From Faecalibacter bovis (lineage in GTDB: Bacteria > Bacteroidota > Bacteroidia > Flavobacteriales > Weeksellaceae), in assembly GCF_017948305.1 (NCBI RefSeq), contig NZ_CP072842.1, positions 1,342,001-1,406,000 of the forward strand: a stretch of DNA of 64,000 bases, in the 5' to 3' direction. Shown here one piece after another: positions 19,972-48,604 of this stretch. The position numbers were made by a program, and so were the translations under genes. Position 1 is the first letter of the stretch. Each line of letters starts with the position of its first letter. Below the pieces are notes generated by a model. It saw only the letters and a list, made by a program, of their open reading frames with translations. It was not told the origin of the DNA and made no database searches.

Positions 19972-20034
19972 GCAAAAACATTTGGAAACTTCAAAAAAGC
20001 GCCTAACTTTGCAATCCGAAAACAATACAACACT

Positions 20035-20108
20035 GATCCGGTAGTTCAGTTGGTTAGAATACTTGCCTGTCACGCAAGTGGTCGCGGGTTCGAGTCCCGT
20101 CCGGATCG
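20035..20108 (+). tRNA. tRNA-Asp (GTC), copy 1
   Basis: 74 bases with a 7-bp acceptor stem (GATCCGG / CCGGATC), D-loop AGTTCAGTTGGTTAGA, anticodon loop CTGTCAC with GTC at 20069-20071, T-loop GGTTCGAGTCC and discriminator G. The next three bases are CCA (20109-20111), so the 3' end is encoded. Confidence 0.97.
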
Positions 20109-20160
20109 CCAACAAAGAGTGTAGTTCTTTAACAAAAAATAATATATTTTAAATAATACT

Positions 20161-20234
20161 GATCCGGTAGTTCAGTTGGTTAGAATACTTGCCTGTCACG
20201 CAAGTGGTCGCGGGTTCGAGTCCCGTCCGGATCG
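20161..20234 (+). tRNA. tRNA-Asp (GTC), copy 2
   Basis: Identical over all 74 bases to copy 1. CCA follows at 20235-20237. The 49-base spacer from copy 1 (after its CCA) contains a small AAAGA/TCTTT hairpin and is otherwise AT-rich. Confidence 0.97.
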
Positions 20235-20283
20235 CCAATTTTTTTATTGCCTTAAAATATATTATAATTAATTTATAATTTTA

Positions 20284-20357
20284 GATCCGGTAGTTCAGTT
20301 GGTTAGAATACTTGCCTGTCACGCAAGTGGTCGCGGGTTCGAGTCCCGTCCGGATCG
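20284..20357 (+). tRNA. tRNA-Asp (GTC), copy 3
   Basis: Identical in the 74-base body to the other copies, but it is followed by CAT, so CCA is not encoded and must be added by CCA-transferase. The upstream bases (TTTA) also differ from the ACT that precedes the other three copies. Confidence 0.97.
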
Positions 20358-20414
20358 CATCTATTTCTTTTTCTATTTTAGAACGATCAAGAATTATAAA
20401 TAAAATTAAAGACT

Positions 20415-20488
20415 GATCCGGTAGTTCAGTTGGTTAGAATACTTGCCTGTCACGCAAGTGGTCGCGGGTTCGAGTCCCGTCCGGATCG
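20415..20488 (+). tRNA. tRNA-Asp (GTC), copy 4
   Basis: Identical in the 74-base body to copies 1-3; CCA follows at 20489-20491. A terminator lies 14 bases downstream, so the four genes are probably one transcript. Confidence 0.97.
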
Positions 20489-20505
20489 CCAACTATAATA
20501 TCTTT

Positions 20506-20537
20506 TTAAAGCTTCACATTTGTGAAGCTTTTTTTTT
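20506..20537 (+). terminator. Terminator of the tRNA-Asp cluster
   Basis: AAAGCTTCACA / TGTGAAGCTTT hairpin with a 2-base loop, followed by T9. Confidence 0.92.
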
Positions 20538-32646: not shown

Positions 32647-33666
32647 ATGAAAAAAAACTTAACGTTAAAACAAATTGCAAAGGAGTTAGAAGTTTCTGTT
32701 TCAACAGTTTCTAAAGCTTTAAAAAATAGTGAAGAAATTAGTGAAGCAACTCGTCAAAAAATTCAAGCATTTGCAAAATTATACAATTACAAACCTAATA
32801 ATATTGCACTAAGTTTAAAGAATAGAAAAACGAAAACGATTGCGGTGATTATTCCAGAAGTTGTTCATCACTTTTTTGCAATGGTTATTAGTGGAATAGA
32901 GCATGTAGCCAATCTTAAAGGATATAATGTAATTATTTGTATATCGAACGAGTCGTACGAACGAGAAGTAATCAATATGGAAATGTTAGCTTCAGGTAGT
33001 ATCGATGGGTTTATTATTTCCTTAGCAAAAGAGTCGCAAGAAAAAAAGGATTATCACCATATTAAAGAGGTAATTAATCAAGGCATGCCAGTGGTGATGT
33101 TTGACCGTGTAACAAGAGAAGTGTATACAGATAAAGTAATTATTGATGATGTACTTGCTACACAAGAGGCTATCCAATTCTTTTTGAGCAAGGAACGTAA
33201 AAAAATTGCCATGATTTCTACACCTGATTATATTTCCGTTGGTCGCTTACGCACTGAAGGTTATATGCGAACTTTAGAACAAAATGACATTCCAGTAAAC
33301 GAAGATTTAATCTTAAGAATCGAAGATGAAACGAAGTTAACTGAACAACTAGAGCATTTATTCGATACGCAACAATTTGATGCATTAATGGCTGTAAATG
33401 AAATATATGCTGTTGCAGCATTAAAAGTTGCTTTAAAACGAGGAATCAAAGTACCTGAAGGTTTGAATATCATAGGTTTTACAGACGGAATTATTTCTCA
33501 ACATTCAACTCCTTCAATTTCTACCGTTAAACAAAATGCTTTTAAAATGGGCGAAATTTCTGCTAAATTATTAATCAATAAATTAGAAGAACAAAGCGAA
33601 CACGAACATTATATAACGGAGGTTATCGGTACCGAATTACTACACCGAGAAACTACATCGTTATAG
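32647..33666 (+). CDS. LacI-family transcriptional regulator of the alpha-glucan locus
   Basis: 339 residues. The N-terminal helix-turn-helix reads LKQIAKELEVSVSTVSKAL, followed by the hinge (NNIALSLKNRKTKTIAV) with the helix that usually inserts a Leu into the central CG step. The rest is a periplasmic-binding-protein-like effector domain (VIIPEVVHHFFAMVISGIE to FTDGIISQHSTPSISTV). Maltose or a related sugar is the likely effector from context. In this kind of locus LacI regulators replace the SusR type of Bacteroides. Repressor or activator status cannot be told. Confidence 0.93.
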   Translation: MKKNLTLKQIAKELEVSVSTVSKALKNSEEISEATRQKIQAFAKLYNYKPNNIALSLKNRKTKTIAVIIPEVVHHFFAMVISGIEHVANLKGYNVIICISNESYEREVINMEMLASGSIDGFIISLAKESQEKKDYHHIKEVINQGMPVVMFDRVTREVYTDKVIIDDVLATQEAIQFFLSKERKKIAMISTPDYISVGRLRTEGYMRTLEQNDIPVNEDLILRIEDETKLTEQLEHLFDTQQFDALMAVNEIYAVAALKVALKRGIKVPEGLNIIGFTDGIISQHSTPSISTVKQNAFKMGEISAKLLINKLEEQSEHEHYITEVIGTELLHRETTSL

Positions 33667-33778
33667 TTAATTTTTTGAGTTAAATAATTGATTAACTTAT
33701 TATAATCCCAAAAAAAAGTCTTAAAATTGTAGTCTAATCAAAACATATTTTTACTTCTCAAACCAAAAATATAGTTTT

Positions 33779-33798
33779 GATAAGCTGCAACGCTTATC
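33779..33798. promoter_or_regulatory. Inverted repeat upstream of the MFS gene
   Basis: GATAAGC, 6 bases, GCTTATC, 27 bases before the MFS ATG. It could be a leader hairpin or a binding site. The arms do not match the susC-lacI operator. Confidence 0.45.
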
Positions 33799-33824: not shown

Positions 33825-35171
33825 ATGGAAAAGCGTAGACTAGGATTCTGGGAAATCTGGAATTTAAGTTTCGGATACTTTGGTATCCAAATGGGATTTG
33901 CGTTACAAAATGCAAATGCAAGTAGAATCCTTCAAACTTTTGGTGCAGATGTGCATCATTTGTCTTGGTTTTGGATTGTAGCTCCTTTAATGGGTTTAAT
34001 TGTACAACCTATCATTGGACATTATTCTGATAAAACATGGGGACGTTTCGGTCGCCGTAAACCATACTTTTTAATTGGTGCTGTATTAGCAAGTTTAGGA
34101 TTAATCCTAATGCCTCAAGCTGGTGCATTTACCGCATTACTTCCAGCATTATGGATGGGAGCAGGTTTCTTAATGATTATGGATGCATCGTTCAATATTG
34201 CGATGGAACCATTTCGTGCATTAGTTGCTGATGTTTTACCTTCGGATCAACGTACATTAGGATTTTCTATCCAAACTTCATTAATCGGTTTCGGAGCTGT
34301 TTTAGGTTCTTGGTTACCTTACATTTTAAGTAATTGGGTTGGAGTTGAAAGTGTTGCTGCTGAAGGAGAAGTTCCTTTTCACTTAATCTTTTCATTCTTA
34401 ATTGGGGCTTTAATTTTAATTCTATCTGTAATTATTACAGTTTCTACTACGAAAGAATATTCGCCAGAAGAATTAGATGCCTTCGATAGAGCAGAAGGGA
34501 AAGAACCTGTTGTTGAAGAACAAGCCACTTTTTCTCAAATTTTCAAAGACTTTGGTAATATGCCAACGACCATGAAACAATTGGGATGGGTTCAGTTTTT
34601 TACATGGTTCGGATTATTTGGAATGTGGGTTTTTGCGACTCCAGCAATTGCGCATCACGTGTACAAATTACCCTTAACTGATACCTCTTCTGCAACATAT
34701 AACGAAGCAGGGGATTGGGTCGGAATTATATTCGGAGTTTATAATGCAGTTTCAGCAGTATTCGCCTTTTTCTTACCTGCATTAGCATTAAAAATTGGTC
34801 GTAAAACAACACACACTATTTCTTTAATTGCTGGAGGACTTGGTTTAATTTCAATTTATTTTATTGATAATCCTTATTTACTAATAGTATCAATGTTAGG
34901 AGTCGGAATCGCTTGGGCAAGTATTTTAGCAATGCCTTATGCCATGTTAGCAGGTTCAATTCCCGCAAAGAAAATGGGAGTTTATATGGGAATTTTCAAT
35001 TTCTTTATCTGTATTCCTCAAATTATCAACTCGATTTTAGGAGGTCCAATTGTTAAATACATCTATGGTGGAAATCCAATTTACGCAATCATGATGAGTG
35101 GTGTTGCATTCATTTTAGCAGCTTTACTAGTTCAACGCGTTCAGGACGATGAAAAACCAATCAAAGCATAA
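33825..35171 (+). CDS. MFS sugar transporter (SLC45-like, probable maltose/maltodextrin carrier)
   Basis: 448 residues, about twelve membrane helices. The start FWEIWNLSFGYFGIQMGFALQNANASRI and the loop SDKTWGRFGRRKPY are typical of the sucrose/maltose-transporting GPH/SLC45-like MFS proteins found in flavobacterial alpha-glucan loci. A second loop (KIGRKTTHTIS) marks the C-terminal half. It would bring maltose across the inner membrane for the GH65 phosphorylase. The gene is separated from lacI by 158 bases and followed 5 bases later by pgmB. Confidence 0.9.
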   Translation: MEKRRLGFWEIWNLSFGYFGIQMGFALQNANASRILQTFGADVHHLSWFWIVAPLMGLIVQPIIGHYSDKTWGRFGRRKPYFLIGAVLASLGLILMPQAGAFTALLPALWMGAGFLMIMDASFNIAMEPFRALVADVLPSDQRTLGFSIQTSLIGFGAVLGSWLPYILSNWVGVESVAAEGEVPFHLIFSFLIGALILILSVIITVSTTKEYSPEELDAFDRAEGKEPVVEEQATFSQIFKDFGNMPTTMKQLGWVQFFTWFGLFGMWVFATPAIAHHVYKLPLTDTSSATYNEAGDWVGIIFGVYNAVSAVFAFFLPALALKIGRKTTHTISLIAGGLGLISIYFIDNPYLLIVSMLGVGIAWASILAMPYAMLAGSIPAKKMGVYMGIFNFFICIPQIINSILGGPIVKYIYGGNPIYAIMMSGVAFILAALLVQRVQDDEKPIKA

Positions 35172-35176
35172 TTATT

Positions 35177-35833
35177 TTGAAAACGAAAGCATTTATTTTC
35201 GACTTAGATGGTGTTATTGTAGATACTGCAAAATACCACTTCTTGGCTTGGCAAAAATTAGCGGAGTCTTTAGGAATCAATTTCACACACGAACACAACG
35301 AAGAATTAAAAGGAGTTTCTCGTGTGCGATCATTAGAAATTATTCTTGGATTGGGTAATGTAGAAGCAACTCAAGAACAAAAAGACGAATGGTTAGTTCA
35401 GAAAAACGAAGATTATTTACAGTACATCGACAAAATGGATGATTCTGAAATTTTACCAGGTGTAATGAAAGTGTTAGAATTTTTAAAATCGAATCAACAA
35501 CCGATCATCTTAGGTTCTGCTTCTAAAAATGCACGTCCAATATTAGAGAAAGTAAACATTTTACACTACTTCGATGATATTGTAGATGGAAATGATGTTT
35601 CGAATGCAAAACCAGATCCAGAAGTATTTTTAGTTGGAGCAAATAAAGCGAATCAACCGAATGAAAACGCGATTGTTTTCGAAGATTCAGTGGCTGGAAT
35701 TCAAGCAGCAAATATCGCTGGAATGATGAGTGTCGGTATAGGTGAGGCTTCAGTTTTAAATGAGGCAGATGTTGTATTCAACAACTTCACGGAGATTACA
35801 GAAGAATTCTTAAGAGAATTGATTAATAAATAG
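35177..35833 (+). CDS. pgmB: Beta-phosphoglucomutase
   Basis: 218 residues, HAD superfamily. It converts beta-glucose-1-phosphate to glucose-6-phosphate. Motifs seen are FDLDGVIVDTA (nucleophile and acid/base Asp, residues 8-18), the cap segment KGVSRVRSLEIIL, GSASKNA, and KPDPEVFLVGA ... VFEDSVAGIQAA. The only suitable start is TTG at 35177, seven residues before the FDLDG motif. The start is 5 bases after the MFS stop, so coupling is likely. GH65 follows after 29 bases and makes its substrate. Confidence 0.94.
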   Translation: MKTKAFIFDLDGVIVDTAKYHFLAWQKLAESLGINFTHEHNEELKGVSRVRSLEIILGLGNVEATQEQKDEWLVQKNEDYLQYIDKMDDSEILPGVMKVLEFLKSNQQPIILGSASKNARPILEKVNILHYFDDIVDGNDVSNAKPDPEVFLVGANKANQPNENAIVFEDSVAGIQAANIAGMMSVGIGEASVLNEADVVFNNFTEITEEFLRELINK

Positions 35834-35862
35834 TACACAAACAAACATACAATACAACAAAA

Positions 35863-38157
35863 ATGAATCAAGATTATATCATCCCGAATGCGTGGTCAAT
35901 TATAGAAGAAGGGTTTGAAAAAGATCGAGTAAAATCGTCTGAAAGTTTATTCTCTATCGGAAACGGAGCCATGGGGCAACGTGCCAATTTCGAAGAGTTT
36001 TATTCAGGCGATACGTTCCAAGGAAGTTACATTGCCGGAGTTTACTATCCAGACAAAACAAAAGTGGGTTGGTGGAAAAACGGTTATCCAGAATATTTCG
36101 CGAAAGTTTTAAATGCACCTGTTTGGATCGGAATCAACATTGAAATCAATGGAGAACAATTCGATTTAAATACGTGTAAAGAAGTGAAAAACTTCCGTCG
36201 CGAATTAAATATGAAAGAAGGAATTTTAGATCGTTCATTTGTAGCGACTTTACCTTCTGGTTTAGAAATTGAAGTTTTTGTGCGTCGTTTCTTAGCTGCT
36301 GATTTAGATGAATTAGGTGCAATTAAATATGACATCAAACCTTTAAACGGAGATGCTAAAATTGTTTTTAAACCTTACGTTGATGCTCACGTAAAGAACG
36401 AAGATGCAAACTGGGAAGAAATTTTCTGGGAGTCGATCGGATCTGAAATCAAAGGAGAACAAGGTTTCGTACAAGCGCGTACATTCAAAACACATTACAA
36501 TGTGGTAACGTATATGGAGAATGCAATTTTCATTAACGATGAAAAACAAGCGATCACTCCAACAGCTACAAAAACAGAATGGAAAGTTGAATTCACTTAC
36601 GAAGTAGAAGTTAAAGCAAATGAAATAGCAACGATCCAAAAATTTGGTGGATATGTAGTTTCGACAAATCATAAAGAAAACGAATTAGTTGCTGCTGCAG
36701 AAAATGTATTAGCACAAGCCAATGCTTTAGGTTATGAACAATTGTTAATAAACCAAAAAGAAGCGTGGGCAAATACTTGGGAAATGGCGGATATTACTAT
36801 CGAAGGTGATGTGAGAGCACAACAAGGAATTCGTTTCAATATCTTCCAATTAAACCAAACTTATTCAGGGAAAGATGCTCGTTTAAACATCGGACCAAAA
36901 GGATTTACAGGGGAAAAATACGGTGGATCGACATATTGGGATACAGAAGCATATTGTTTACCATTCTATATGGCGACGAAGAACCAAGAAGTGGCGCGTA
37001 ACTTATTAACATATCGTTACAACCAATTGGGCAAAGCGATTGAAAATGCTGAGAAATTAGGATTTACAAAAGGTGCGGCATTATACCCAATGGTAACAAT
37101 GAACGGAGAAGAATGTCACAACGAATGGGAAATTACATTCGAGGAAATTCACCGAAATGCAGCTATCGCTTTTGCTATTTTCAACTATACACGTTTCACA
37201 GGAGATCAATCGTATATTCCTGAAGCTGGTTTAGAAGTTTTATTAGGAATCGCTCGTTTCTGGAAACAACGTGTCAATTGGTCTGCTGATAAAAAACAAT
37301 ACGTCATGTTAGGAGTTACTGGTCCTAATGAATACGAAAACAACGTCAATAATAACTTCCACTCAAATTATTGTGCACAATGGTGTATGAATTATTTGAT
37401 TGAACAAGTGGAAAATGTAAAAGCGAATTATCCAGAAGATTTCGCTCGTATCACTGCTAAAACAAACATCACAGATGCTGAATTAGCAGAAATGAAAGAA
37501 GTAGCGGCTAACATCTATTTCCCATACAGCGAAGAATTAGGAATTTACTTACAACAAGACGGATTCTTAGATAAAGATTTAACTCCTGTTTCTGAATTAG
37601 CAAAAGAAGAACGTCCAATCAACCAAAAATGGTCTTGGGATAGAATCTTACGCTCGGCTTACATCAAACAAGCGGATACGTTACAAGCATTCTATTACTT
37701 CGAGGATCAGTTCTCAAAAGAACAATTAGAAAAACACTTTGATTTCTATGAACCATTAACAGTTCACGAATCGTCTTTATCACCTTGTGTGCATTCGATT
37801 CAAGCTGCTACTTTAGGTCGTATGGAACAAGCTTATACATTTTACTTAAGAACTTCTCGTTTAGATTTAGACGATTACAACAAAGAGGTTCACGAAGGAT
37901 TACACATCACATCAATGGCTGGAACGTGGATGTCGATTGTAGAAGGATTTGGTGGAATGCGTGTGAAAAATGATACGCTATATTTTGAACCTCGTTTACC
38001 AGAACAATGGGAAGGATTTTCGTTCAAAATTAATTTCCGTAATCAAATCCTAAAAGTCAATGTAAATAAAGGTGAAACAACTTTCGAATTGGAAGGTACT
38101 GAACCATTAGAGGTTTATGTATTCGACCAAAAAGTAGTGGTGCAGCCTTCTATTTAA
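35863..38157 (+). CDS. Glycoside hydrolase family 65 phosphorylase, probable maltose phosphorylase
   Basis: 764 residues, full GH65 length. Cytoplasmic (no signal peptide). N-terminal beta-sandwich, then the (alpha/alpha)6 barrel. Catalytic acid Glu about 490 lies in GPNEYENNV, the phosphate site in HESSLSPCVHS (about 634 on). Alternatives in the family are kojibiose, trehalose or nigerose phosphorylase; the neighbouring MFS, pgmB and amylases make maltose the best guess. Products would be glucose and beta-glucose-1-phosphate, the latter used by the PgmB encoded just upstream. Confidence 0.93.
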   Translation: MNQDYIIPNAWSIIEEGFEKDRVKSSESLFSIGNGAMGQRANFEEFYSGDTFQGSYIAGVYYPDKTKVGWWKNGYPEYFAKVLNAPVWIGINIEINGEQFDLNTCKEVKNFRRELNMKEGILDRSFVATLPSGLEIEVFVRRFLAADLDELGAIKYDIKPLNGDAKIVFKPYVDAHVKNEDANWEEIFWESIGSEIKGEQGFVQARTFKTHYNVVTYMENAIFINDEKQAITPTATKTEWKVEFTYEVEVKANEIATIQKFGGYVVSTNHKENELVAAAENVLAQANALGYEQLLINQKEAWANTWEMADITIEGDVRAQQGIRFNIFQLNQTYSGKDARLNIGPKGFTGEKYGGSTYWDTEAYCLPFYMATKNQEVARNLLTYRYNQLGKAIENAEKLGFTKGAALYPMVTMNGEECHNEWEITFEEIHRNAAIAFAIFNYTRFTGDQSYIPEAGLEVLLGIARFWKQRVNWSADKKQYVMLGVTGPNEYENNVNNNFHSNYCAQWCMNYLIEQVENVKANYPEDFARITAKTNITDAELAEMKEVAANIYFPYSEELGIYLQQDGFLDKDLTPVSELAKEERPINQKWSWDRILRSAYIKQADTLQAFYYFEDQFSKEQLEKHFDFYEPLTVHESSLSPCVHSIQAATLGRMEQAYTFYLRTSRLDLDDYNKEVHEGLHITSMAGTWMSIVEGFGGMRVKNDTLYFEPRLPEQWEGFSFKINFRNQILKVNVNKGETTFELEGTEPLEVYVFDQKVVVQPSI

Positions 38158-38544
38158 TAAAGGGAAAAATAGAATACCTTGAAGGCTTCGGCTTTTGAGG
38201 TATTTTTTTATCAATTTATAGATTAAACTTCCTTTTTTCTGAACTCGTTTTAGGATTTCAATAAATTAGGAAGTGAAGCTGAACGAGATTCAGCTTGGAT
38301 ATTAAAATAAATAAAATGGCCTCTAAATCTATGACGTTAATAAAATAAATAGAGTGAAGGATTAGAATGAATTAGTGACCGTAGGGAATCATTTAATTCA
38401 TTGCCGAAATGAAATTTATTTTTAGTCAAATAGATTTAAAGCCTTGATTTTTTGAATACTTTTTTATCAAGAAAAAAGTATTGAAGAAATGTATCGTTTC
38501 TGTGTCAAGACAAAAATGAAAATCAATAAACACAAATTACGAGA
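38158..38544. repeat. Repeat-filled gap A between GH65 and GH13
   Basis: 387 bases without a gene. It contains a degenerate copy of repeat R1 (38233-38298, with an AAGCTGAA...TTCAGCTT hairpin) and the best copy of repeat R2 (38430-38523). The 5' part (38158-38230) has AGGCTTCGGCTTTTGAGG-type sequence followed by T7, which could act as a terminator. No coding frame is supported. Confidence 0.8.
38430..38523 (+). repeat. Repeat R2, copy A
   Basis: Shares about 94 bases with 40535-40627, differing at only a few positions. It includes a perfect 11-bp hairpin, AATACTTTTTT-ATCAAG-AAAAAAGTATT. It ends 21 bases before the GH13 ATG. Confidence 0.9.
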
Positions 38545-40401
38545 ATGAAAAAACTATTCATACTAACTTCTTTATTATCATCCTTCGCCTTTGCTCAAAT
38601 TCAAAGGGTCGAACCAATGTTTTGGTGGAAAGGAATGAAAAATCCGGAACTACAAATTTTAGTGTACGGAAAAGACATTAGTAAATATAACATCGAGTTA
38701 TCGGACAAAATCCAAATCAAGGACATCACCAAAACAGAGAATCCAAATTATGTTTTTGTAACGTTAAACACGAATGAAATCAATACCTCATCTTTCAAGA
38801 TTAACATCAAGAATAAAAACAAGATTGTTGATTCTTATACGTACGAGTTAAAAAATCGTCAACCAAATTCAGCGAATCGTTCGTCGTTTTCATCAAAAGA
38901 TGTGGTGTATTTAATTATGCCGGATCGTTTTGCAAACGGAGATGAAAGCAATGATTCAAAAAAAGAATTGCGTGAGAAAATGAATCGTCAATTGCCAGGT
39001 GGTCGTCACGGAGGAGATTTGCGAGGAATTATCAACAACTTAGATTATATCCAAATTTTGGGAGCCACTGCGGTTTGGCTAACTCCAGTTAATGAAGACA
39101 ACGAAAAAGAATATTCGTACCACGGCTACGCCCAAACGGATTTATATAAAATAGATGGACGATACGGATCGAATGAAGATTACCGTGAATTGTCTCAGAA
39201 ATTGAATCAACGAGGAATGTACTTGATTCAAGATTATGTCACGAACCACTGGGGAATCTCACATTGGATGATTCAGGATTTACCGACAAAAGATTGGATT
39301 CATACATTTCCTGAAGGCGAAAATGGTTTCCGTCGTTCAAATTACAGAACAACAACACAATTTGATTCAAACGCTTCAGAGATTGATAAAATCGGAGCGT
39401 TAAATGGTTGGTTTGATACCACAATGCCAGACATCAATCAAGCGAATCCTTTGGTTTTGAAATATATCACTCAAAATGCAATTTGGTGGATAGAATATGC
39501 CGAATTAGGTGGATTGCGTGTGGATACATATCCTTACAATAATAAAGAGGGGATGGCAACTTGGGTAAAAGCGATTACCAATGAATATCCAAACCTGAAT
39601 GTCGTGGGAGAGGCGTGGATGTATTCTCCGGCTCATATTTCTTATTGGCAAAAAGATTCTAAAATTGGTGAAATGGCTGGTTACAATTCAAATCTTCCAG
39701 CAATTATGGATTTTACTTTATACAGTAAAATGACTGAAGCATTTCAGGAAGAAGAATCTTGGGACAAAGGAATGGTTAAAATTTACGAAACTTTTACAAG
39801 TGATTTTTTATATCCAGATGTGAACAACATGTTTGTTTTCTTCGAAAATCACGATACGGAACGTTGGAACGAAATGTTTAAAGGTGATATTAACGCCTAT
39901 AAATTAGCTACAACTTTAATCGGAACGGTTCGCGGTATACCACAGATTTATTACGGAACTGAAATAGGTATGGCTGGGGATAAAAAGAAAGGTGGAGATG
40001 CAGCAATTCGTCAAGATTTTCCTGGTGGTTGGAAGTCGGATGCTCAAAATGCTTTTGAATCAAAGTCACGAACAGCAACACAAAAAGCTTATTATGATTT
40101 TACCGCTAAAGTTTTTAATTGGCGTAAAAGCAAAGAAGTAATTCATTCTGGTAAAACAAAACATTTTGCTCCTCAAAATGATATTTATGTTTATTTCAGA
40201 TATAATGAAAATGAATCTGTCATGGTTATTTTAAATAATAAGTCAGAAAAACAAATTTTAAAATTAGATCGTTTCGCAGAAGCAATTAAAGGATACAATT
40301 CAGGAAAAGATATTATTTCAGAACAAATTTTCCCGATTAATATAAATGGAGAAATTACAATCGATGAAAAATCTTCAATGATTATTGAGTTGAAAAAATA
40401 G
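38545..40401 (+). CDS. GH13 alpha-amylase family enzyme, periplasmic neopullulanase/cyclomaltodextrinase-like
   Basis: 618 residues. A type I signal peptide (to FAFA/Q) is followed by an N-terminal domain (about 20-115, VEPMFWWKGMKNPELQILVYG) of the kind seen in neopullulanases and cyclomaltodextrinases. Then the TIM barrel with VYLIMPDRFANGD, YHGYAQTDLYKID, catalytic Asp327 (LRVDTYPY), Glu356 (VGEAW) and Asp437 (ENHDTER). A small C-terminal beta domain ends the chain. There is no lipobox, so it should be soluble in the periplasm, like SusA. Repeat-filled gaps flank it on both sides. Confidence 0.93.
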   Translation: MKKLFILTSLLSSFAFAQIQRVEPMFWWKGMKNPELQILVYGKDISKYNIELSDKIQIKDITKTENPNYVFVTLNTNEINTSSFKINIKNKNKIVDSYTYELKNRQPNSANRSSFSSKDVVYLIMPDRFANGDESNDSKKELREKMNRQLPGGRHGGDLRGIINNLDYIQILGATAVWLTPVNEDNEKEYSYHGYAQTDLYKIDGRYGSNEDYRELSQKLNQRGMYLIQDYVTNHWGISHWMIQDLPTKDWIHTFPEGENGFRRSNYRTTTQFDSNASEIDKIGALNGWFDTTMPDINQANPLVLKYITQNAIWWIEYAELGGLRVDTYPYNNKEGMATWVKAITNEYPNLNVVGEAWMYSPAHISYWQKDSKIGEMAGYNSNLPAIMDFTLYSKMTEAFQEEESWDKGMVKIYETFTSDFLYPDVNNMFVFFENHDTERWNEMFKGDINAYKLATTLIGTVRGIPQIYYGTEIGMAGDKKKGGDAAIRQDFPGGWKSDAQNAFESKSRTATQKAYYDFTAKVFNWRKSKEVIHSGKTKHFAPQNDIYVYFRYNENESVMVILNNKSEKQILKLDRFAEAIKGYNSGKDIISEQIFPININGEITIDEKSSMIIELKK

Positions 40402-40445
40402 TTTGAGGTGTAAGTCTTAAGTTATAAGACTTAAGGTAGCCTTCC

Positions 40446-40498
40446 GTCACTTCGAGTGAATTTTCGAAATGCAATACAGAAAATTTGCATCGAGAAGT
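40446..40498 (+). repeat. Repeat R3
   Basis: Begins GTCACTTCGAGTGAATTTTC and ends GCATCGAGAAGT. ACTTCGAGTG and ATCGAGAAGT are imperfect inverted arms around a central spacer, so the unit can fold. I recognise this type of element as common in intergenic DNA of Bacteroidota. Confidence 0.65.
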
Positions 40499-40534
40499 AA
40501 AACGAAACTAAATGAGATTTATTTTCTTAACGTC

Positions 40535-40627
40535 ATAGATTTAAAGACTTGATTTTTTGAATACTTTTTTATCAAGAAAAAAGTATTGAAGAAATGAATC
40601 ATTTTGTGTCAAGACAAAAATGAAAAT
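40535..40627 (+). repeat. Repeat R2, copy B
   Basis: Nearly identical to 38430-38523, with the same perfect 11-bp hairpin (AATACTTTTTT, loop ATCAAG) and the same tail TGTCAAGACAAAAATG. Confidence 0.9.
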
Positions 40628-40646
40628 ATAATTATAATTTGAGCTA

Positions 40647-40720
40647 ATGAATTCAGTCACACTGAGCTTGTCGAAGTGTTATTAATAATTCTTAAAAAGT
40701 TCAGAATAAAAAAATCGTAC
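40647..40720 (+). repeat. Repeat R4, copy B
   Basis: AATGAATTC-A-GTCACACTGAG then CTTGTCGAAG match copy C at 43071-43100 with one difference. The second arm (about 40690-40720) is a decayed form of the arm in copy C. Confidence 0.8.
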
Positions 40721-40757
40721 AACGAAAAACATCAAACGTAACACGTAAAAAAACAAA

Positions 40758-42863
40758 ATGAAAAAAATAACAACAACAATATTTACTTTACTAGCCATTG
40801 GAGTATTAAATGCACAAACCATTGAATCGCCATCGAAGCATTTAAAAGTTAATTTCGAATTAACGGCTAATGGTCAACCATCGTATACGGTAACGTATAA
40901 AGGTAAAGAAATTGTAAAACCTTCAACATTAGGTTTCGTTTTAAAAGATGCAAAAGCTTTAGAAAATGGATTTACAGTTACAAATTATACGACTAAATCG
41001 GTAAATGACGCATGGCAACCTGTTTTAGGAGAATATAAAGAAATTAAAGATATTCATAACGAAGGTACGTTTCAATTAACGCAAATTTCTACCAACAGAA
41101 ATGTAAATGTTACGTTTCGAGTTTTTGATGAAGGTGTAGCTTTTCGCTATGAATTTCCGAAGCAACAAAACTTAAATTATTTTGTCGTAAAAGAAGAAAA
41201 AACACAATTTAATTTAACAGGAGATCACCAAACGTTTTGGCTACCTGGTGACTTCGATACACAAGAATATACCTACATCGAATCTAAAATTTCAGGAATC
41301 GATCACAGCAAAATTGATATGAATAATGGAATTGGAGTGAAATCAATTGGGAAACCAAATTCAGTTCAAACACCATTACAAATGAAAACTGACGATAATA
41401 TTTACCTAAATATTTTTGAAGCAGCAGTGGTTAATTATCCCGTAATGCATTTAGAATTTGATAAAAATACGTTTCAATTTCAATCGCATTTAGCGCCTAA
41501 TGCAATCGGAGATTTAGCTTATTTACAAGCGCCTTTCAACACACCTTGGCGCACGATTATGGTGTCGGATGATGCCCGTGATATCGTAGGGAAAGGTCCA
41601 CAAATGATTTTGAATCTAAATGAACCTTCTAAAATTGAAGATACATCTTGGATAAAACCAATGAAATATGTCGGAATTTGGTGGGAAATGCACGTTGGGA
41701 AATCAACTTGGGATCGTCAAGGAACTCAGAACGCACAAAACCAAGTCGGGCAGGAGGCGATTAAATTTCCTCATGGTGCGACAACTGAAAATACAAAACG
41801 TTACATCGACTTTGCTGCAAAACACGGATTTGATGGGGTTTTAGTAGAAGGTTGGAACGAAGGATGGGAAGATTGGTACGGAAACTGGAAAGAAGATGTT
41901 TTTGACTTTACAACTCCTTATGCTGATTTTGATATCAAAGAAATCTCAGCTTATGCAAAAGCTAAAGGCGTAAAAATGATTATGCATCACGAAACTTCTG
42001 GTTCAGTAGCTAATTACGAACGTCGTTTTGATCGTGCAATGGATGTAATGAAACAATATGAATATCCAGCTGTAAAAACAGGGTATGTGGGTCGAATCAT
42101 TCCAAGAGGAGAATTTCACGATGGGCAAACGATGGTCAATCACTTTAATTGGACGGTAGAGCGTTTTGCAGAAAATAAAATTTTAGTCAACACACACGAA
42201 AGTTCTCGCCCTTCAGGTTATCACCGTACCTATCCTAACTACATCGCAGCAGAAGCAACACGTGGAAATGAGTTTAATGCATGGAGTTATGGAAATCCTC
42301 CAGCGCACGAAACGATTTTACCTTTCACTCGTTCATTAGGTGGACCAATTGATTACACACCTGGAATTTTCGAAACTGATATGAAAGTGTACAATGTTGG
42401 TCGTGATACTAAAGTACACACGACTTTAGCGAAACAATTGGCTTTATATGTCACGTTATATTCTCCGTTACAAATGGCAGCTGATTTACCAGAAAACTAC
42501 GAGAAGTATGCAGATGCTTTCCAATTTATTAAAGATGTAGCTTTAGATTGGGACGATACAAAATATTTAGAAGCTGAACCAGGTGATTATTTAACAGTAG
42601 CGCGTAAAGCAAATGGATCTGAAAATTGGTTTATAGGAGCAATTACAGATGAAAATCCTCGTCAGACAGAAATTAAATTAGATTTCTTAACGCCAGGAGT
42701 AACGTACGAAGCAACAATTTACCAAGATGCGAAAAATGCACATTGGGATAAAAATCCAAAAGCGTACGACATCAAAAAATTGAAAGTCAATTCAAAATCA
42801 AAGCTGAAATTGAATTTAGCGGCGAGTGGAGGAACAGCAATTTCTATTTTTCCAGTGAAATAG
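40758..42863 (+). CDS. susB: GH97 alpha-glucosidase, SusB-like
   Basis: 701 residues with a type I signal peptide (to LNAQ). GH97 has an N-terminal beta-super-sandwich (about 20-280), a TIM barrel and a C-terminal beta domain. In my recollection SusB of B. thetaiotaomicron uses Glu439, Glu508, Glu526 and Glu532. Here Glu412 (HHETSG), Glu481 (NTHESSRPSG), Glu499 and Glu505 (AAEATRGNEF) sit exactly 27 residues earlier, with identical spacing. That supports an inverting, calcium-dependent alpha-glucosidase. It works on maltodextrins in the periplasm. Confidence 0.94.
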   Translation: MKKITTTIFTLLAIGVLNAQTIESPSKHLKVNFELTANGQPSYTVTYKGKEIVKPSTLGFVLKDAKALENGFTVTNYTTKSVNDAWQPVLGEYKEIKDIHNEGTFQLTQISTNRNVNVTFRVFDEGVAFRYEFPKQQNLNYFVVKEEKTQFNLTGDHQTFWLPGDFDTQEYTYIESKISGIDHSKIDMNNGIGVKSIGKPNSVQTPLQMKTDDNIYLNIFEAAVVNYPVMHLEFDKNTFQFQSHLAPNAIGDLAYLQAPFNTPWRTIMVSDDARDIVGKGPQMILNLNEPSKIEDTSWIKPMKYVGIWWEMHVGKSTWDRQGTQNAQNQVGQEAIKFPHGATTENTKRYIDFAAKHGFDGVLVEGWNEGWEDWYGNWKEDVFDFTTPYADFDIKEISAYAKAKGVKMIMHHETSGSVANYERRFDRAMDVMKQYEYPAVKTGYVGRIIPRGEFHDGQTMVNHFNWTVERFAENKILVNTHESSRPSGYHRTYPNYIAAEATRGNEFNAWSYGNPPAHETILPFTRSLGGPIDYTPGIFETDMKVYNVGRDTKVHTTLAKQLALYVTLYSPLQMAADLPENYEKYADAFQFIKDVALDWDDTKYLEAEPGDYLTVARKANGSENWFIGAITDENPRQTEIKLDFLTPGVTYEATIYQDAKNAHWDKNPKAYDIKKLKVNSKSKLKLNLAASGGTAISIFPVK

Positions 42864-42928
42864 ATGAAGTTGTAAAGTACAAGACTTAAGTAATAAGGAT
42901 TCTTTGAAAAACTTTGAATTGATAGTTA

Positions 42929-42996
42929 ACGTCATCCTGAACTTGTTTCAGGATCTCATCAAATTAGGATGCGAAGCTGAAATTAATTCAGCTTGA
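42929..42996 (+). repeat. Repeat R1, copy C
   Basis: CGTCATCCTGAACTTGTTTC and the following bases contain two hairpins: TCCTGAA/TTCAGGA and AAGCTGAA/TTCAGCTT. A degenerate copy is at 38233-38298, which keeps the second hairpin (AAGCTGAA-CGAGA-TTCAGCTT). Confidence 0.8.
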
Positions 42997-43010
42997 CAAA
43001 CAAATCGAAG

Positions 43011-43051
43011 TCTTGATTTTTTGAATACTTTTTTATCAAGAAAAAAGCATT
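43011..43051 (+). repeat. Repeat R2, copy C (short)
   Basis: Keeps TCTTGATTTTTTGAATAC and the hairpin, with one change (AAGCATT for AAGTATT). The 3' half of the unit found in copies A and B is missing. Confidence 0.85.
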
Positions 43052-43070
43052 TAGAAAACAAATAGAAATA

Positions 43071-43135
43071 ATGAATTCTGTCACACTGAGCTTGTCGAAG
43101 AGTAATGTAAAATTCTTTGACAGGCTCAGAATGAC
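43071..43135 (+). repeat. Repeat R4, copy C
   Basis: GTCACACTGAGCTTGTCGAA-G at 43080-43100 pairs with CTTTGACAGGCTCAGAATGA-C at 43115-43135 (17 of 21 positions), forming a long imperfect hairpin. Confidence 0.8.
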
Positions 43136-43156
43136 AAAATCGTAAAACGTAAAAAA

Positions 43157-45526
43157 ATGAAAAAACTAACACTTTCAATCATATTACTTTCTACTATAGC
43201 TTGGGCACAAAACCCAAATCGTAGTTTCCAATCGTACAAAAAAGTACAGAATGGAGTAGAGGTAAAGACGAATGATGGAACTTATTATATACAACCTTAT
43301 TCAGAGAAAATTGTCGAAACCTCTTTTGTACCAAATGGTCAACAAGCAAAAGATGGTTCTCACGCCGTGATTATGAAACCACAATCTGTTTCGTCTAAAA
43401 TTAAAGATTCGAAAAAAGAATTAGTGATTGAAACGAAAGGGTTAAAAACGGTGATAAATAAGGCGCCGTTTCAAGTGAAATATTATTACAAAGATAAATT
43501 AGTCACTTCTGAAAAGTTAGGGTATCAACAAGTGAACGATTCGACTGAAACGATTCAATTCAACTTAACAAAATACGAAGCGCTTTACGGTGCTGGAGCT
43601 CGTGTCTTAGGAATGAATCGTCGTGGAAATCGATTAGAATTATACAATCGTGCGCACTATGGTTACGAGACAGAATCGAAGTTGATGAACTTTACAATGC
43701 CGATTGCTATTTCATCGAATCAATATATGATTCATTTTGACAATGCACCGATTGGATTCTTAGATTTTGATTCGAAAAAAGCAAACGAATTAACGTACGA
43801 AACGATTTCAGGGAATAAAAAATACCAAGTGGTCGTAGGAGATTCGTGGACAGATATGGTTAGCAATTATACCAATCTTACGGGGAAACAAGAAATGTTA
43901 CCGCGTTGGGCAATGGGAAATATTGCGTCAAGAATGGGTTATCACGATCAAGCCGAAGTAAAGTTTGTGGTGGATAAATTCCGTCGAGATTCAATTCCGT
44001 TGGATGGAATCATTTTAGATTTGTATTGGTTCGGAAAAACGGTGCAAGGAACAATGGGGAATTTAGATTGGGATATAGATAATTTCAATCGCCCAGATGA
44101 AATGATTGCTTATAACAAAAAGCATGGGGTTAAAACGGTTTTAATAACGGAACCTTTTATTTTAACGACTTCATCGAAATGGAATGAAGCGGTTCAAAAA
44201 GATATTTTAGCCAAAACAAAAGAGGGGAAACCATTTACCTACGATTTCTATTTCGGAAATACAGGATTAATCGACATTTTCAAACCAGAAGCAAAAACGT
44301 GGTTTTGGAATGTGTACAAAAAATTCATTAATCAAGGAATTGATGGTTGGTGGGGAGATTTAGGTGAACCAGAAGTTCATCCAAAAGCATTACAACACAT
44401 CAATGGTTCTGCCGATGAGGTGCATAATATTTATGGATCTGAATGGGCAAAATTGGTGTATGATGGCTACAAGAAAGATTTTCCAGAACAACGTCCTTTT
44501 ATATTAATGCGTTCGGCTTATTCTGGAGCACAACGTTACGGAATGATTCCTTGGTCAGGTGATGTAAACCGTACGTGGGGTGGACTTCATGGTCAAACCG
44601 AAATCAGTTTACAAATGGGAATGCAAGGAATTCCTTATATGCATTCGGATTTAGGAGGATTTGCCGGAAACTACGAAGACGATGAATTGTACACGCGTTG
44701 GTTACAATACGGCGTGTTTCAACCAATTTACCGTCCACACGCACAAGAAGATGTTCCTTCAGAACCAATTTTCAAAAATTTAGCGACAAAAGAATTAGCG
44801 AAACAAGCGATTGAGTTACGTTATCAGTTAATGCCTTACAATTATACATTGGTTTATGAGAATAGTATTTCTGGACAACCTTTAATGCGTCCTTTATTTT
44901 TTGAAGATGATTCGAATAAAGAATTATTAAATGTTTCGACGACTTATTTTTGGGGCAAAAACTTTTTAGTGTCTCCAATTGTTGAAAAAGGTTTAAAAAC
45001 ACAGCAAGTACATTTCCCAAAAGGTGCAAATTGGTTTGATTTTTATACGGATGAAAAAGTAGAAGGTGAACAAGTTAAAGCAATTAAAACTGTCGAAAAT
45101 TCTATCCCAACTTATGTGCGTGGAGGAAGTTTTATTCCGATGGCGAAATTGGTTCAGACGACAGAAGATTATAATTTAGATGAATTCGAAGTGCATTATT
45201 TCTTTGATGTAGAAGTGAAACAATCATCAGATTATATCTATAACGACGATGGAAAAACACCAAATGCATTTGAAAAAGGATTGTTTGAGAAAATTAATTT
45301 TTCATCAAAATTAGATAAATCAAAAGCATCAATAGAGATTGAAACCATAAAAGGTAAAAACTATCAAGGTTCGGATAAGAAAGTGAAAGTGATTATTCAT
45401 AATGCTCCATCAAACTTAAAATTAAATCAAGGTTTAAATGGAAATTATGATGCGGCTAAAAAACATTTTATCGTAGAAGTAGCTTTACAAGCTGAAGGAA
45501 AATCACAAATTAATTTCAGTTTTTAA
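43157..45526 (+). CDS. GH31 alpha-glucosidase
   Basis: 789 residues with a type I signal peptide (to AWAQ). GH31 retaining alpha-glucosidase: N-terminal beta-sandwich, TIM barrel with the nucleophile Asp401 in GWWGDLGEPE, acid/base Asp469 in PWSGDVNRTW, and GGFAGN in the active-site loop. Two C-terminal beta domains follow. It removes terminal alpha-linked glucose, possibly including alpha-1,6 branches. Spacing to the next gene is only 22 bases, in contrast to the large gap upstream. Confidence 0.95.
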   Translation: MKKLTLSIILLSTIAWAQNPNRSFQSYKKVQNGVEVKTNDGTYYIQPYSEKIVETSFVPNGQQAKDGSHAVIMKPQSVSSKIKDSKKELVIETKGLKTVINKAPFQVKYYYKDKLVTSEKLGYQQVNDSTETIQFNLTKYEALYGAGARVLGMNRRGNRLELYNRAHYGYETESKLMNFTMPIAISSNQYMIHFDNAPIGFLDFDSKKANELTYETISGNKKYQVVVGDSWTDMVSNYTNLTGKQEMLPRWAMGNIASRMGYHDQAEVKFVVDKFRRDSIPLDGIILDLYWFGKTVQGTMGNLDWDIDNFNRPDEMIAYNKKHGVKTVLITEPFILTTSSKWNEAVQKDILAKTKEGKPFTYDFYFGNTGLIDIFKPEAKTWFWNVYKKFINQGIDGWWGDLGEPEVHPKALQHINGSADEVHNIYGSEWAKLVYDGYKKDFPEQRPFILMRSAYSGAQRYGMIPWSGDVNRTWGGLHGQTEISLQMGMQGIPYMHSDLGGFAGNYEDDELYTRWLQYGVFQPIYRPHAQEDVPSEPIFKNLATKELAKQAIELRYQLMPYNYTLVYENSISGQPLMRPLFFEDDSNKELLNVSTTYFWGKNFLVSPIVEKGLKTQQVHFPKGANWFDFYTDEKVEGEQVKAIKTVENSIPTYVRGGSFIPMAKLVQTTEDYNLDEFEVHYFFDVEVKQSSDYIYNDDGKTPNAFEKGLFEKINFSSKLDKSKASIEIETIKGKNYQGSDKKVKVIIHNAPSNLKLNQGLNGNYDAAKKHFIVEVALQAEGKSQINFSF

Positions 45527-45548
45527 GCTTCAATAAAAAACAAATACA

Positions 45549-47204
45549 ATGAAAAAATTAATATTCAGTATAGCTTTAGGAAGTTTGTTTTTAACATCTT
45601 GTTCAAAAACGATTTTACAAAGCACGCAACAAATTACAAAAAGTGACCAACCATTTGTTTGGAATGGAGCCAACGTTTATTTCTTATTAACCGATCGTTT
45701 TAATAATGGCGATTCTACGAACGATGTCAATTACGGTCGTACACAAGAAACTGCGAAATTAAGAGGTTTTGAAGGAGGAGATATTCGAGGAATTATTCAA
45801 AAAATAGAGGAAGGATATTTCACAAATTTAGGTGTTAATGCAATTTGGATGACACCTTTGGTGGAGCAAATTCACGGTGCGGTTGATGAAGGTCAAGGAC
45901 CAACTTACGGTTTCCACGGTTATTGGACAAAAGACTGGACAGCTTTAGATCGTAATTTTGGAACAGAAAAAGATTTACAAGAATTAGTTGATAAAGCTCA
46001 CACGAAAGGAATTCGTATCATGTTGGATGCGGTAATTAATCATACAGGTCCAGTAACGGAATTGGATGCGGTTTTTCCAGCAGATTGGGTTCGAGTTTCG
46101 CCACATTGTACCTACGATAATTATGTGAATACAACAGCTTGTACTTTGGTTAAAAATCTTCCTGATATTTTAACAGAGTCAGAATCTGATGTTACTTTAC
46201 CGCCACAATTGTTGGAAAAATGGCAAAAAGAAGGTCGATTAAGACAAGAAATTGAAGAATTAAATACATTTTTTGCGAAATATAATCTTCCAAAAGCGCC
46301 GAAATATTACATCATGAAATGGTTGTCGGATTATATTCGTGATTATGGTATTGATGCCTATCGTGTCGATACAGTAAAGCATACAGAAGAAGGAGTTTGG
46401 AAGGTATTTGCAGAGATTTGTAAAGATGCATTTAATGAATACAAAGCTAAAAATCCACACAAAGCTTTAGATAATAATGAGTTTTTCTTATTAGGAGAAG
46501 TTTATAATTATACGATTAATGAAGGGCAAAATTTCTCATTTCCTGATAAGAAAGTAAACTATTTCGAACACGGATTTGATGCGTTAATCAATTTTGATTT
46601 ACGTTCAACACATAATGAAACGTTTCAAAAATTATTCAATCGTTACGATGACATCATCCACAACGAAATGAAAGGGAAGACGGTGATGAATTACATTTCT
46701 TCTCACGATGATGGTTCGCCATACGATAAGAAACGTAAGGTTGCTTGGGATGCTGGAACAAAGTTATTATTAACGCCTGGAATGGCTCAAATTTATTACG
46801 GGGATGAAATTGCTCGACCATTAGAAGTTGATGGTGCAGATGGTGATGCGAATCTTCGTTCGTTCATGAATTGGGAAGATATTCAATCAAATTCTGAAAC
46901 AAAAGAATTGTTAAGCCATTTTCAAAAATTAGGTCAATTCCGTCATAATCATCCAGCGGTAGGAGCAGGAAAACAAACGGTTTTACAAGCTGATCCTTAT
47001 ATTTTTCATCGTAAATACAACGAGGATGAGGTAATTATAGCAATGGATTATTTCAGAGAAGAAAAAGTTATTGATGTAGCTGGACTTTGGACAGATGGAA
47101 CTAAAGTTAGAGATGCATATTCAGGCGAAGTTTCAGTAGTAAAAAACGGAAGAATTGTTTTAGCTTCCACTTCGGATATTGTCTTATTGGAAAAAGTAAA
47201 ATAA
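45549..47204 (+). CDS. GH13 alpha-amylase lipoprotein, probably facing the periplasm
   Basis: 551 residues. The lipobox is FLTSC, followed by SKTILQS, which has no acidic run. By the usual Bacteroidota surface-export rule it should stay on the periplasmic side. Catalytic residues are Asp274 (YRVDTVKH), Glu317 (LLGEVYNY) and Asp387 (SSHDDGS). VYFLLTDRFNNGD starts the barrel. A longer-than-usual B domain region (about 165-260) contains two cysteines (HCTYDN, TACTLV) that could form a disulfide. The next gene starts 17 bases later. Confidence 0.92.
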   Translation: MKKLIFSIALGSLFLTSCSKTILQSTQQITKSDQPFVWNGANVYFLLTDRFNNGDSTNDVNYGRTQETAKLRGFEGGDIRGIIQKIEEGYFTNLGVNAIWMTPLVEQIHGAVDEGQGPTYGFHGYWTKDWTALDRNFGTEKDLQELVDKAHTKGIRIMLDAVINHTGPVTELDAVFPADWVRVSPHCTYDNYVNTTACTLVKNLPDILTESESDVTLPPQLLEKWQKEGRLRQEIEELNTFFAKYNLPKAPKYYIMKWLSDYIRDYGIDAYRVDTVKHTEEGVWKVFAEICKDAFNEYKAKNPHKALDNNEFFLLGEVYNYTINEGQNFSFPDKKVNYFEHGFDALINFDLRSTHNETFQKLFNRYDDIIHNEMKGKTVMNYISSHDDGSPYDKKRKVAWDAGTKLLLTPGMAQIYYGDEIARPLEVDGADGDANLRSFMNWEDIQSNSETKELLSHFQKLGQFRHNHPAVGAGKQTVLQADPYIFHRKYNEDEVIIAMDYFREEKVIDVAGLWTDGTKVRDAYSGEVSVVKNGRIVLASTSDIVLLEKVK

Positions 47205-47221
47205 AAGGAAAAAATACAAAC

Positions 47222-48604
47222 ATGGTTAAACAATTTTTAGCTTTAGGTTTAGTCGCTGGGCTTTTTATTACAAGTTGTGGTAAAAAGGATGAAACTAATA
47301 CCGAAGCAGTACAAACAGAACAATCGGGAGAAAATATTGCTCCCTTTACTGCAGATATGGCGGAAACAGCTGTAATTTATGAAGTAAACGTGCGACAATT
47401 CTCACCAGAAGGAACTTTTGCCGCAGTAACGAAAGAAATTCCTAATATCAAGAAATTAGGTGTTAAGGTTCTTTGGTTAATGCCAATTCATCCAATTGGT
47501 GTTGAAAAACGTAAAGAAGGTTTGGGTTCATATTATTCAATTAGTGATTATCGTGGAGTTAATCCTGAATTTGGAACAGCAGAAGATTTTAGAGCTTTGG
47601 TTAAAGAGGCGCACAAAAATGGAATTTACGTTATTTTAGATTGGGTTGCGAACCACACAGCTTGGGATCATCCATGGATGAAATCTAATCCTGATTTCTA
47701 TGAAAAAGATGAAAAAGGAAACTTTATTTCTCCTTACGATTGGACAGATGTTGTTTCGTTAGAATACAAAAATCCAGCATTACGTAAAGCCATGATTGCC
47801 GATATGAAATATTGGTTGGATGAATTTAACATTGATGGATTCCGTTGCGATATGGCACACATGGTACCAACAGATTTCTGGGCAGAAGCGAAGAAAGAAT
47901 TGGCAAATGGTCGCGAGATTTTTATGTTAGGCGAAACAGAAGAACCAGAATTATTAAAAAATGGCGTTTTTGATGCGGCTTATGGATGGGAATTACATCA
48001 TATCATGAATGATATTGCCAAAGGAAAGAAAAATGTTTCTGCGGTTGATGTTTACATGGATAGCATCCAACACAAATGGGAGAAAGATGATTATAAAATG
48101 TTATTCACTTCAAACCATGATGAAAATTCTTGGGCTGGTACTGAGTTTGAAAGAATGGGAGATGCAGTTGAAACTTTCGCAGCTTTAACGTATGCTTTAC
48201 CATCTGTTCCTTTGATTTATAATGGACAAGAAGAAGATTTCAATCGTCGTTTAAAATTCTTTGTTAAAGATTCTATCGATCGTAATCCAAATGCGAAAAT
48301 GCGTGGTGTTTATGAAAAATTAGGTGAGTTAAAAATCACGAACGAAGCGTTTAATGGAGGTAAAAATGCTGGTTCTTACGAGCGTTTAAAAACGTCTGAT
48401 GATCAAGCTATATTAGCTTTTAAACGTAAGAAGAATTCTACTGAAGCTTATTTTGTTGGAAACTTTACGAAAGTTGCACAAGAAGTTATCGTTCCGATTT
48501 CAGGAACATTTAAAAATTTTATGACGGGTGAAGAAATTAATTTAGATGGAAATTCTAAAGTTAAATTCCAGCCATGGCAATATTATATATTAGTACAGAA
48601 ATAA
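47222..48604 (+). CDS. GH13 alpha-amylase lipoprotein, probable surface amylase
   Basis: 460 residues. The lipobox FITSC is followed by GKKDETNTE, which resembles the Lys-acid-acid surface-export signal known from flavobacterial lipoproteins, so this is the best SusG-like candidate for starch attack at the cell surface. Catalytic residues are Asp210 (FRCDMAHM), Glu238 (MLGETEEPE) and Asp300 (TSNHDENSW). It lacks the inserted carbohydrate-binding domain of SusG. It is the last gene of the locus and is followed by a terminator. Confidence 0.92.
   Translation: MVKQFLALGLVAGLFITSCGKKDETNTEAVQTEQSGENIAPFTADMAETAVIYEVNVRQFSPEGTFAAVTKEIPNIKKLGVKVLWLMPIHPIGVEKRKEGLGSYYSISDYRGVNPEFGTAEDFRALVKEAHKNGIYVILDWVANHTAWDHPWMKSNPDFYEKDEKGNFISPYDWTDVVSLEYKNPALRKAMIADMKYWLDEFNIDGFRCDMAHMVPTDFWAEAKKELANGREIFMLGETEEPELLKNGVFDAAYGWELHHIMNDIAKGKKNVSAVDVYMDSIQHKWEKDDYKMLFTSNHDENSWAGTEFERMGDAVETFAALTYALPSVPLIYNGQEEDFNRRLKFFVKDSIDRNPNAKMRGVYEKLGELKITNEAFNGGKNAGSYERLKTSDDQAILAFKRKKNSTEAYFVGNFTKVAQEVIVPISGTFKNFMTGEEINLDGNSKVKFQPWQYYILVQK

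Follow-up and report, generated by a model that had tools for sequence, protein, structure and literature searches.

The window (the whole 64,000-nt stretch of Faecalibacter bovis DNA that was analysed) lies in a genome of 2.84 Mb, a single contig, and carries an alpha-glucan operon behind a gene for a LacI-type regulator (Table 1). By Pfam, no transposase is encoded among the operon genes; the operon's GH97 shares 96% identity with that of Empedobacter falsenii. Three intergenic gaps of the operon are long, namely gap A (GH65/GH13) with 387 nt, gap B (GH13/GH97) with 356 nt and gap C (GH97/GH31) with 293 nt, while the GH31/GH13 and GH13/GH13 gaps measure 22 and 17 nt; recomputation returned exactly the coordinates and lengths of the initial annotation. 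Gaps A, B and C fold with z-scores of -5.4, -3.5 and -6.4, respectively, each surpassing every dinucleotide shuffle.

Table 1. Features of the alpha-glucan operon and of its three long gaps, with positions counted within the window
Feature	Position	Strand	Basis
LacI-type regulator ahead of the alpha-glucan operon	32647-33666		Pfam
TAGTTTTG, -7-like promoter element upstream of the MFS gene	33772..33779 (start approximate to a few bases)	+	sequence conservation
Alpha-glucan operon: MFS, HAD (beta-PGM-like), GH65, GH13, GH97, GH31, GH13, GH13	33825..48604	+	Pfam
Gap A (GH65/GH13)	38158-38544		
Intrinsic-terminator-like hairpin (AATACCTTGAAGGC-TTCG-GCTTTTGAGGTATT + U-run), start of gap A	38173..38216 (hairpin 38173-38204)	+	MFE -16.1 kcal/mol, z -5.4
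R1 (degenerate), inverted pair of REP-like hairpins, gap A	38239..38297	+	sequence; better-preserved orthologue in G006
E3, complete, ~170 nt, subtype I, gap A	38317..38485	+	covariance model, 161 bits, E 1.3e-30
R2 tail hairpin of E3 (CTTGAT ... loop ATCAAG), gap A	38443..38490	+	fold z -4.8; covariation
Remnant of older alternative E3 tail (TATCGTTTCTGTGTCAAGACAAAAATGAAAA), gap A	38492..38523	+	sequence equals the 3' follower of E3 in G008 and the E3 tail in G005
Gap B (GH13/GH97)	40402-40757		
R3, half of a CGTC-tagged inverted element, gap B	40445..40504	+	tagged-hairpin scan; both halves in G008, G004
E3 remnant, gap B: 5' arm lost, 3' arm replaced, tail intact	40513..40595	+	model match, 62 bits
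R4, TGTC-type hairpin unit, gap B	40656..40709	+	sequence
Gap C (GH97/GH31)	42864-43156		
R1, inverted dimer of CGTC/TGTC-tagged hairpins (8-bp stem, 5-nt loop), gap C	42930..42998	+	fold z -4.8
E3, deletion derivative of a subtype-II copy, tail kept, gap C	42994..43059	+	55.7 bits; intact orthologues in G006, G008
R4, inverted dimer, TGTCA at both ends, 18-bp stem, gap C	43079..43136	+	MFE -34, z -8.5

The initial annotation had recognised four repeat units, R1 to R4, and the mixes it gave for each gap are right: R1 and R2 in gap A; R3, R2 and R4 in gap B; R1, R2 (as the tail of a deletion derivative) and R4 in gap C. As a unit, however, R2 did not stand: it forms the 3' end of E3, an element of ~170 nt that is complete in gap A. 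Besides, the inventory of that gap correctly listed R1 and R2 but overlooked both the degenerate state of the R1 copy and a conserved terminator-like hairpin with U-run. The further statement that no other gap of the window holds such elements was borne out twice: matches to a covariance model for E3 were restricted, within the window, to gaps A, B and C, and a definition-based scan of the window for CGTC/TGTC-tagged hairpins returned three, all in gaps B and C (~0.9 expected by chance).

Further, minor repeat types in gaps B and C are a palindrome of the TAAGTCTTAAG/CTTAAGACTTA type and short repeats of the CGTAAAA type; they occur at 40411-40434 and at the ends of gaps B and C and are also found in congeners. 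Elsewhere in the window, four direct repeats of ~122 nt (73-85% alike) lie at 20009-20510 inside a 651-nt gap.

Predicted terminator and promoter-like site

The orthologous operons of ten congeners were compared with the present one by sequence reading (11 species, one genome per species). The promoter-bearing gap between lacI and the MFS gene spans 158-162 nt in 11/11 species, each of which has TAGTTTTG 53-54 nt ahead of the start of the MFS gene. In the terminator-like hairpin with which gap A begins, the 13 pairs are intact in 9/9 distinct sequences from the 11 species (slid controls, 30-56%). Like intrinsic terminators and attenuators inside operons, this candidate site combines a stable hairpin with a subsequent U-run 3' of GH65, at a position conserved in the genus; a simple terminator-consensus scan did not list it.

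These observations bear on the earlier suggestion that the locus may be cut into sub-transcripts. Gap A is a plausible place for such a cut, although what speaks for it there is the conserved terminator rather than R1-R4; a TAnnTTTG-type promoter was found in none of the three gaps. The sole conserved promoter-like site is the putative one upstream of the operon, and the predicted gap A terminator lies downstream of it. Since the terminator hairpin and TAGTTTTG are conserved in all species compared, any expression split of the operon would likelier be due to these two predicted signals than to the repeats. Owing to the predicted terminator, MFS-HAD-GH65 is probably transcribed at a higher level than GH13-GH97-GH31-GH13-GH13.

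Architecture of E3 and the REP-like units

Full copies of E3 (n = 23) are 168-172 nt long and fall into three subtypes whose stems share little sequence, yet follow the same plan: a closing helix (GRC/GYC), a long bulged hairpin and a tail of the form CTTGAY - T-run - stem - RTCAAG - stem. The loop of the tail hairpin, RTCAAG, can pair with the CTTGAY just 5' of the hairpin. This pairing overlaps the tail hairpin in the manner of a pseudoknot, and the tail is predicted to form either the hairpin or an H-type pseudoknot. Covariation follows the plan closely. Across 22 sequences, 99.7% of the pair cells were standard, as compared with 41-58% in slid controls, and 36 cells showed double changes versus 0-2 in these controls; a change in helix 1 (GGC/GCC to GAC/GTC) and one in the tail (T-A to C-G) were mutually independent. 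Among wider matches, 62 of 91 had both motifs, and in these the free loop/upstream pair was T-A in 40, C-G in 15, A-T in four and another combination in three; the CTTGA and TCAAG letters themselves are uninformative there, because the search expression fixes both. The middle pair of helix 1 (P1) occurs as four Watson-Crick types in the wider matches. Moreover, the sense strand folded better than the antisense strand in 18/22 copies (Wilcoxon p 1.6e-4).

Two of the three operon copies are broken, yet none of the gaps has lost the tail hairpin; this hairpin is A-U rich, and no sense-strand U-run follows it. In gap B, the 3' arm is the reverse complement of a 5' arm, giving an inverted repeat (38321-38350 / 40517-40546, 93% over 30 nt), and such a flipped arm is what template switching in a quasi-palindrome would be expected to leave. 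The deletion in the gap C copy occurred at AAAT repeats.

The other units, R1, R3 and R4, appear by sequence to resemble CGTC/TGTC-tagged REP units, in agreement with the initial annotation, which had considered them common Bacteroidota-type elements. The CGTC REP superfamily lacks a dedicated transposase and has been reported in Bacteroidetes (Di Nocera et al. 2013, PMC3733652). Shared with it are the CGTC/TGTC tag, an 8-bp stem beginning A-T, the intergenic location, the 5-nt loop (in R1), inverted dimers and the lack of a linked transposase. R1 in gap C is the clearest instance, with tags directly 5' of its hairpins (CGTC/ATCCTGAA-CTTGT-TTCAGGAT and TGTC/AAGCTGAA-TTAAT-TTCAGCTT), stems of 8 bp starting AT and AA, and loops of 5 nt, all within the usual range (8-9 bp, 4-5 nt, A/T in the first two positions); both it and R4 in the same gap are inverted dimers without a linked transposase. 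On the other hand, R3 has a 6-nt loop and one mismatch, R4 has mismatches within the unit, and copies in the genome are few. Because the unpaired 3' CCA tail usual in CGTC REPs is absent and tails of CTC, CGC, CAC or GCA are found instead, we call these units REP-like and not strict members. The annotation had also described the elements as dispersed, which is true of E3 with its ~45 copies; R4 is not, since both of its good copies in the genome sit in the alpha-glucan operon.

Distribution of E3 and history of the gaps

At E <= 1e-3, the covariance model matched 45 sites in the genome and from 0 (G009, G013) to 62 (G006) per congener genome. E3 was found in 134/197 genomes and 21/33 genera of a family sample and, at E <= 1e-4, in 61/246 genomes and 31/82 genera of a sample of the order Flavobacteriales; as few candidates per genome were scored in these larger searches, their copy counts are minimum values, and the lowest scores should be read with caution. 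Matches to the tail extend to plasmids of Persicobacter, Aureibacter and Marivirga (Cytophagales). On the Aureibacter plasmid, an E3-like element (62.7 bits; L313, 1383-1549) lies in sense between cas7d and cas5d of a type I-D cas operon. Phage records gave no E3 match. Rfam covariance models found nothing near a gathering score in gaps A-C (best E 0.18) and had no match at E 0.05 in six E3 loci of other genera. The partial coverage of the literature likewise yielded no match, and the element might be described under another name.

Several settings of E3 deserve mention. At genome positions 967274-970700, tandem E3 arrays with periods of 257 bp (5.2 copies, 96% alike) and 137 bp flank a DegT-type aminotransferase gene on both sides at the edge of a polysaccharide cluster. 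A sense E3 lies upstream of the 16S gene in 6/6 rRNA loci examined, the nearest at ~480-570 nt, one 16S match being partial. In G011 (L295, 1318-4486 and 15208-16278), E3 copies flank a block of genes for ATPase-like and helix-turn-helix-like proteins, possibly an island, and include inverted pairs ~56 nt apart; similar pairs occur in G004.

Across the species compared, gaps A, B and C range from 3 to 676 nt and are varied mosaics of one set of elements. A tree of concatenated operon proteins places our genome in a clade (G005,(own,(G006,G008))), with the remaining species outside. Within this clade, each of the three gaps contains E3, whole or broken and always in sense, whereas bodies and tails vary between species, having been exchanged, deleted or template-switched. 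The gap A body is of subtype I in our genome, G006 and G005 (shortened there) and of subtype II in G008, which nevertheless shares one unusual 3' junction with our genome; the gap C copy is an internal deletion of a subtype-II E3 that is still whole in G006 and G008. Outside the clade, G001, G002 and G013 have the same operon with some short gaps and no E3 detected in them, other gaps, in G004, G010 and G011, are filled with REP-like units, and G003 retains a tail remnant.

Passengers, RNA modules or mobile elements

The presence/absence difference at an orthologous site that marks a mobile element was found for E3 at 646.6 kb, where the element is present in our genome and absent in G006 (flank 94% identical). 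The difference includes ~60 nt of other sequence and leaves no clean excision footprint. E3 thus appears to behave as a unit that is gained or lost. At the orthologous 854.9-kb site, contents differ by species and no clean empty site was seen. Another structured-looking repeat (GCGTTAGGGATTGAAGTGGAAATCCTTT...GGGAACGCCC) occupies the gap orthologous to 646.6 kb in G008, G005, G011, G010 and G001.

E3 has features in common with RAYT-associated REPs/REPINs of the GTAG type (PMC6006769, PMC3116915), i.e. dispersed intergenic hairpins, mosaic clusters and possibly single-strand recognition. Unlike these, E3 is ~170 nt long with a pseudoknot-capable tail, and neither it nor R1-R4 bears a GTAG tag: GT[AG]G is absent 5' of the E3 hairpin foot, and CTTGAY and a T-run precede the tail hairpin in aligned copies. 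With BIME-type mosaics and MITEs it shares the occurrence of short non-coding repeats in mixed clusters and inverted pairs (as in G011 and G004), but E3 is defined by a conserved internal structure plus 3' tail; neither terminal inverted repeats nor a recognised target duplication was seen for it. A genus-wide search covering Y1 transposases identified no mobilising enzyme: Y1_Tnp genes were not detected in 8/14 congeners, among them G003 and the E3-rich G004, G006, G008 and G012 (25-62 E3 matches each), and the only Y1 locus of our own genome is flanked by a palindrome unlike E3. A RAYT as the mobiliser of E3 was therefore left without support. Locus L047 (1195-2340) holds two tandem Y1-transposase-like genes, the second shortened, with GGGGCGAATTGCAATTCGCCC palindromes around them, and resembles a RAYT-like unit with its own repeat. 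Integron-like cassette arrays were considered because E3 clusters occur in several genomes, and seem less likely, as the surrounding genes did not look like a cassette array.

That the gaps are ordinary intergenic clutter, most long gaps of the genome being alike, might be supposed from the 45 E3 matches and from clusters elsewhere, such as the array at 967-971 kb. It is contradicted by a background sample of 400 kb (20 x 20 kb, evenly spaced along the genome). In this sample, E3 occurs in 2/47 gaps of at least 250 nt, as opposed to 3/6 in the window, or in 1/26 versus 3/4 when only same-strand gaps are counted; totals are approximate, because genes were called mechanically (ORFs of at least 80 aa). 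The three operon gaps are therefore enriched in E3, and the similar density in most long gaps that the initial annotation had named as refuting its view was not found, which makes clutter a very improbable explanation. Instead, we consider it fairly probable that gaps A-C are inherited accretion slots for non-autonomous structured repeats that are tolerated as passengers, and that the separate conserved terminator in gap A probably splits expression. The repeats are read in this way because two of the three operon E3 copies are broken and several species lack E3 there. Accordingly, of the two interpretations offered by the annotation, the one that has the repeats settle at sites tolerant of insertion is the better supported: the promoter gap is constant, the downstream gaps are variable mosaics, and broken copies persist. 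E3 would have entered gaps A-C in the common ancestor of the clade, at places where its arrival disrupted no promoter. Copies may still recombine with one another, and deletions and template switching at the hairpins may continue to reshape the gaps. In the transcript, the gaps would form stable hairpins that affect mRNA stability or read-through modestly at most. Sister species show the enrichment too, and this counts against a pure passenger model unless shared ancestry explains it.

Two other readings assign the repeats a more active part. It is unlikely, in our estimation, that they are functional intercistronic RNA, kept because their hairpins adjust the GH65/GH13/GH97/GH31 ratio by terminating transcription in part, by serving as RNase targets or by stabilising 3' ends. 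Stable folds of gaps and units, the better folding of the sense strand, the tail hairpin retained in all three gaps despite lost bodies and the sense placement of the E3-like element in the Aureibacter cas operon would agree with such a role, as would orientation, since E3 points the same way as the gene upstream of it in 23/25 gaps of our genome. Not all of these cases are independent, as the E3 copies ahead of the 16S genes in rRNA operons are related to each other, and the bias is weaker in congeners (10/15 gaps). E3 as a strict sense 3'-UTR element was rejected on these grounds; still, the bias hints at selection against antisense copies or at a role at the RNA level. A function in the operon is disfavoured by the broken copies, by the short gaps of G002, G013 and G001, by an A-U-rich tail hairpin lacking a U-run and by subtypes that vary between species within one slot. 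This last observation, together with presence/absence between species and a hairpin architecture reminiscent of single-strand-recognised repeats, could rather suggest that the gaps are hot spots into which E3 and REP units are inserted time and again by a specific mobilising system, e.g. an HUH/Y1 transposase that works on hairpins in single-stranded form. We deem this quite improbable given the distribution of Y1_Tnp genes and the different palindrome at the sole Y1 locus of our genome; besides, the junctions of the slots are better accounted for by shared ancestry and recombination than by a series of new insertions.

In summary, the predicted gap A terminator offers a simple basis for unequal expression within the operon, and the operon gaps have led us to a family of structured repeats which shows the covariation of a functional fold, is present across one order and in a second, and has no Rfam match. 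Tentatively, we propose that E3, with its closing GNC/GNC helix, an apical GAGCGA-AGCGA-like segment and the pseudoknot-capable 3' tail (CTTGAY...RTCAAG), could represent an undescribed family of structured elements of Flavobacteriales and at least some Cytophagales, whose members either spread in the form of single-stranded DNA or, once transcribed, work as intercistronic RNA modules. E3 now has a searchable model and located copies, from which its mobiliser, if it is mobile, or its role, if it acts as RNA, can be approached.
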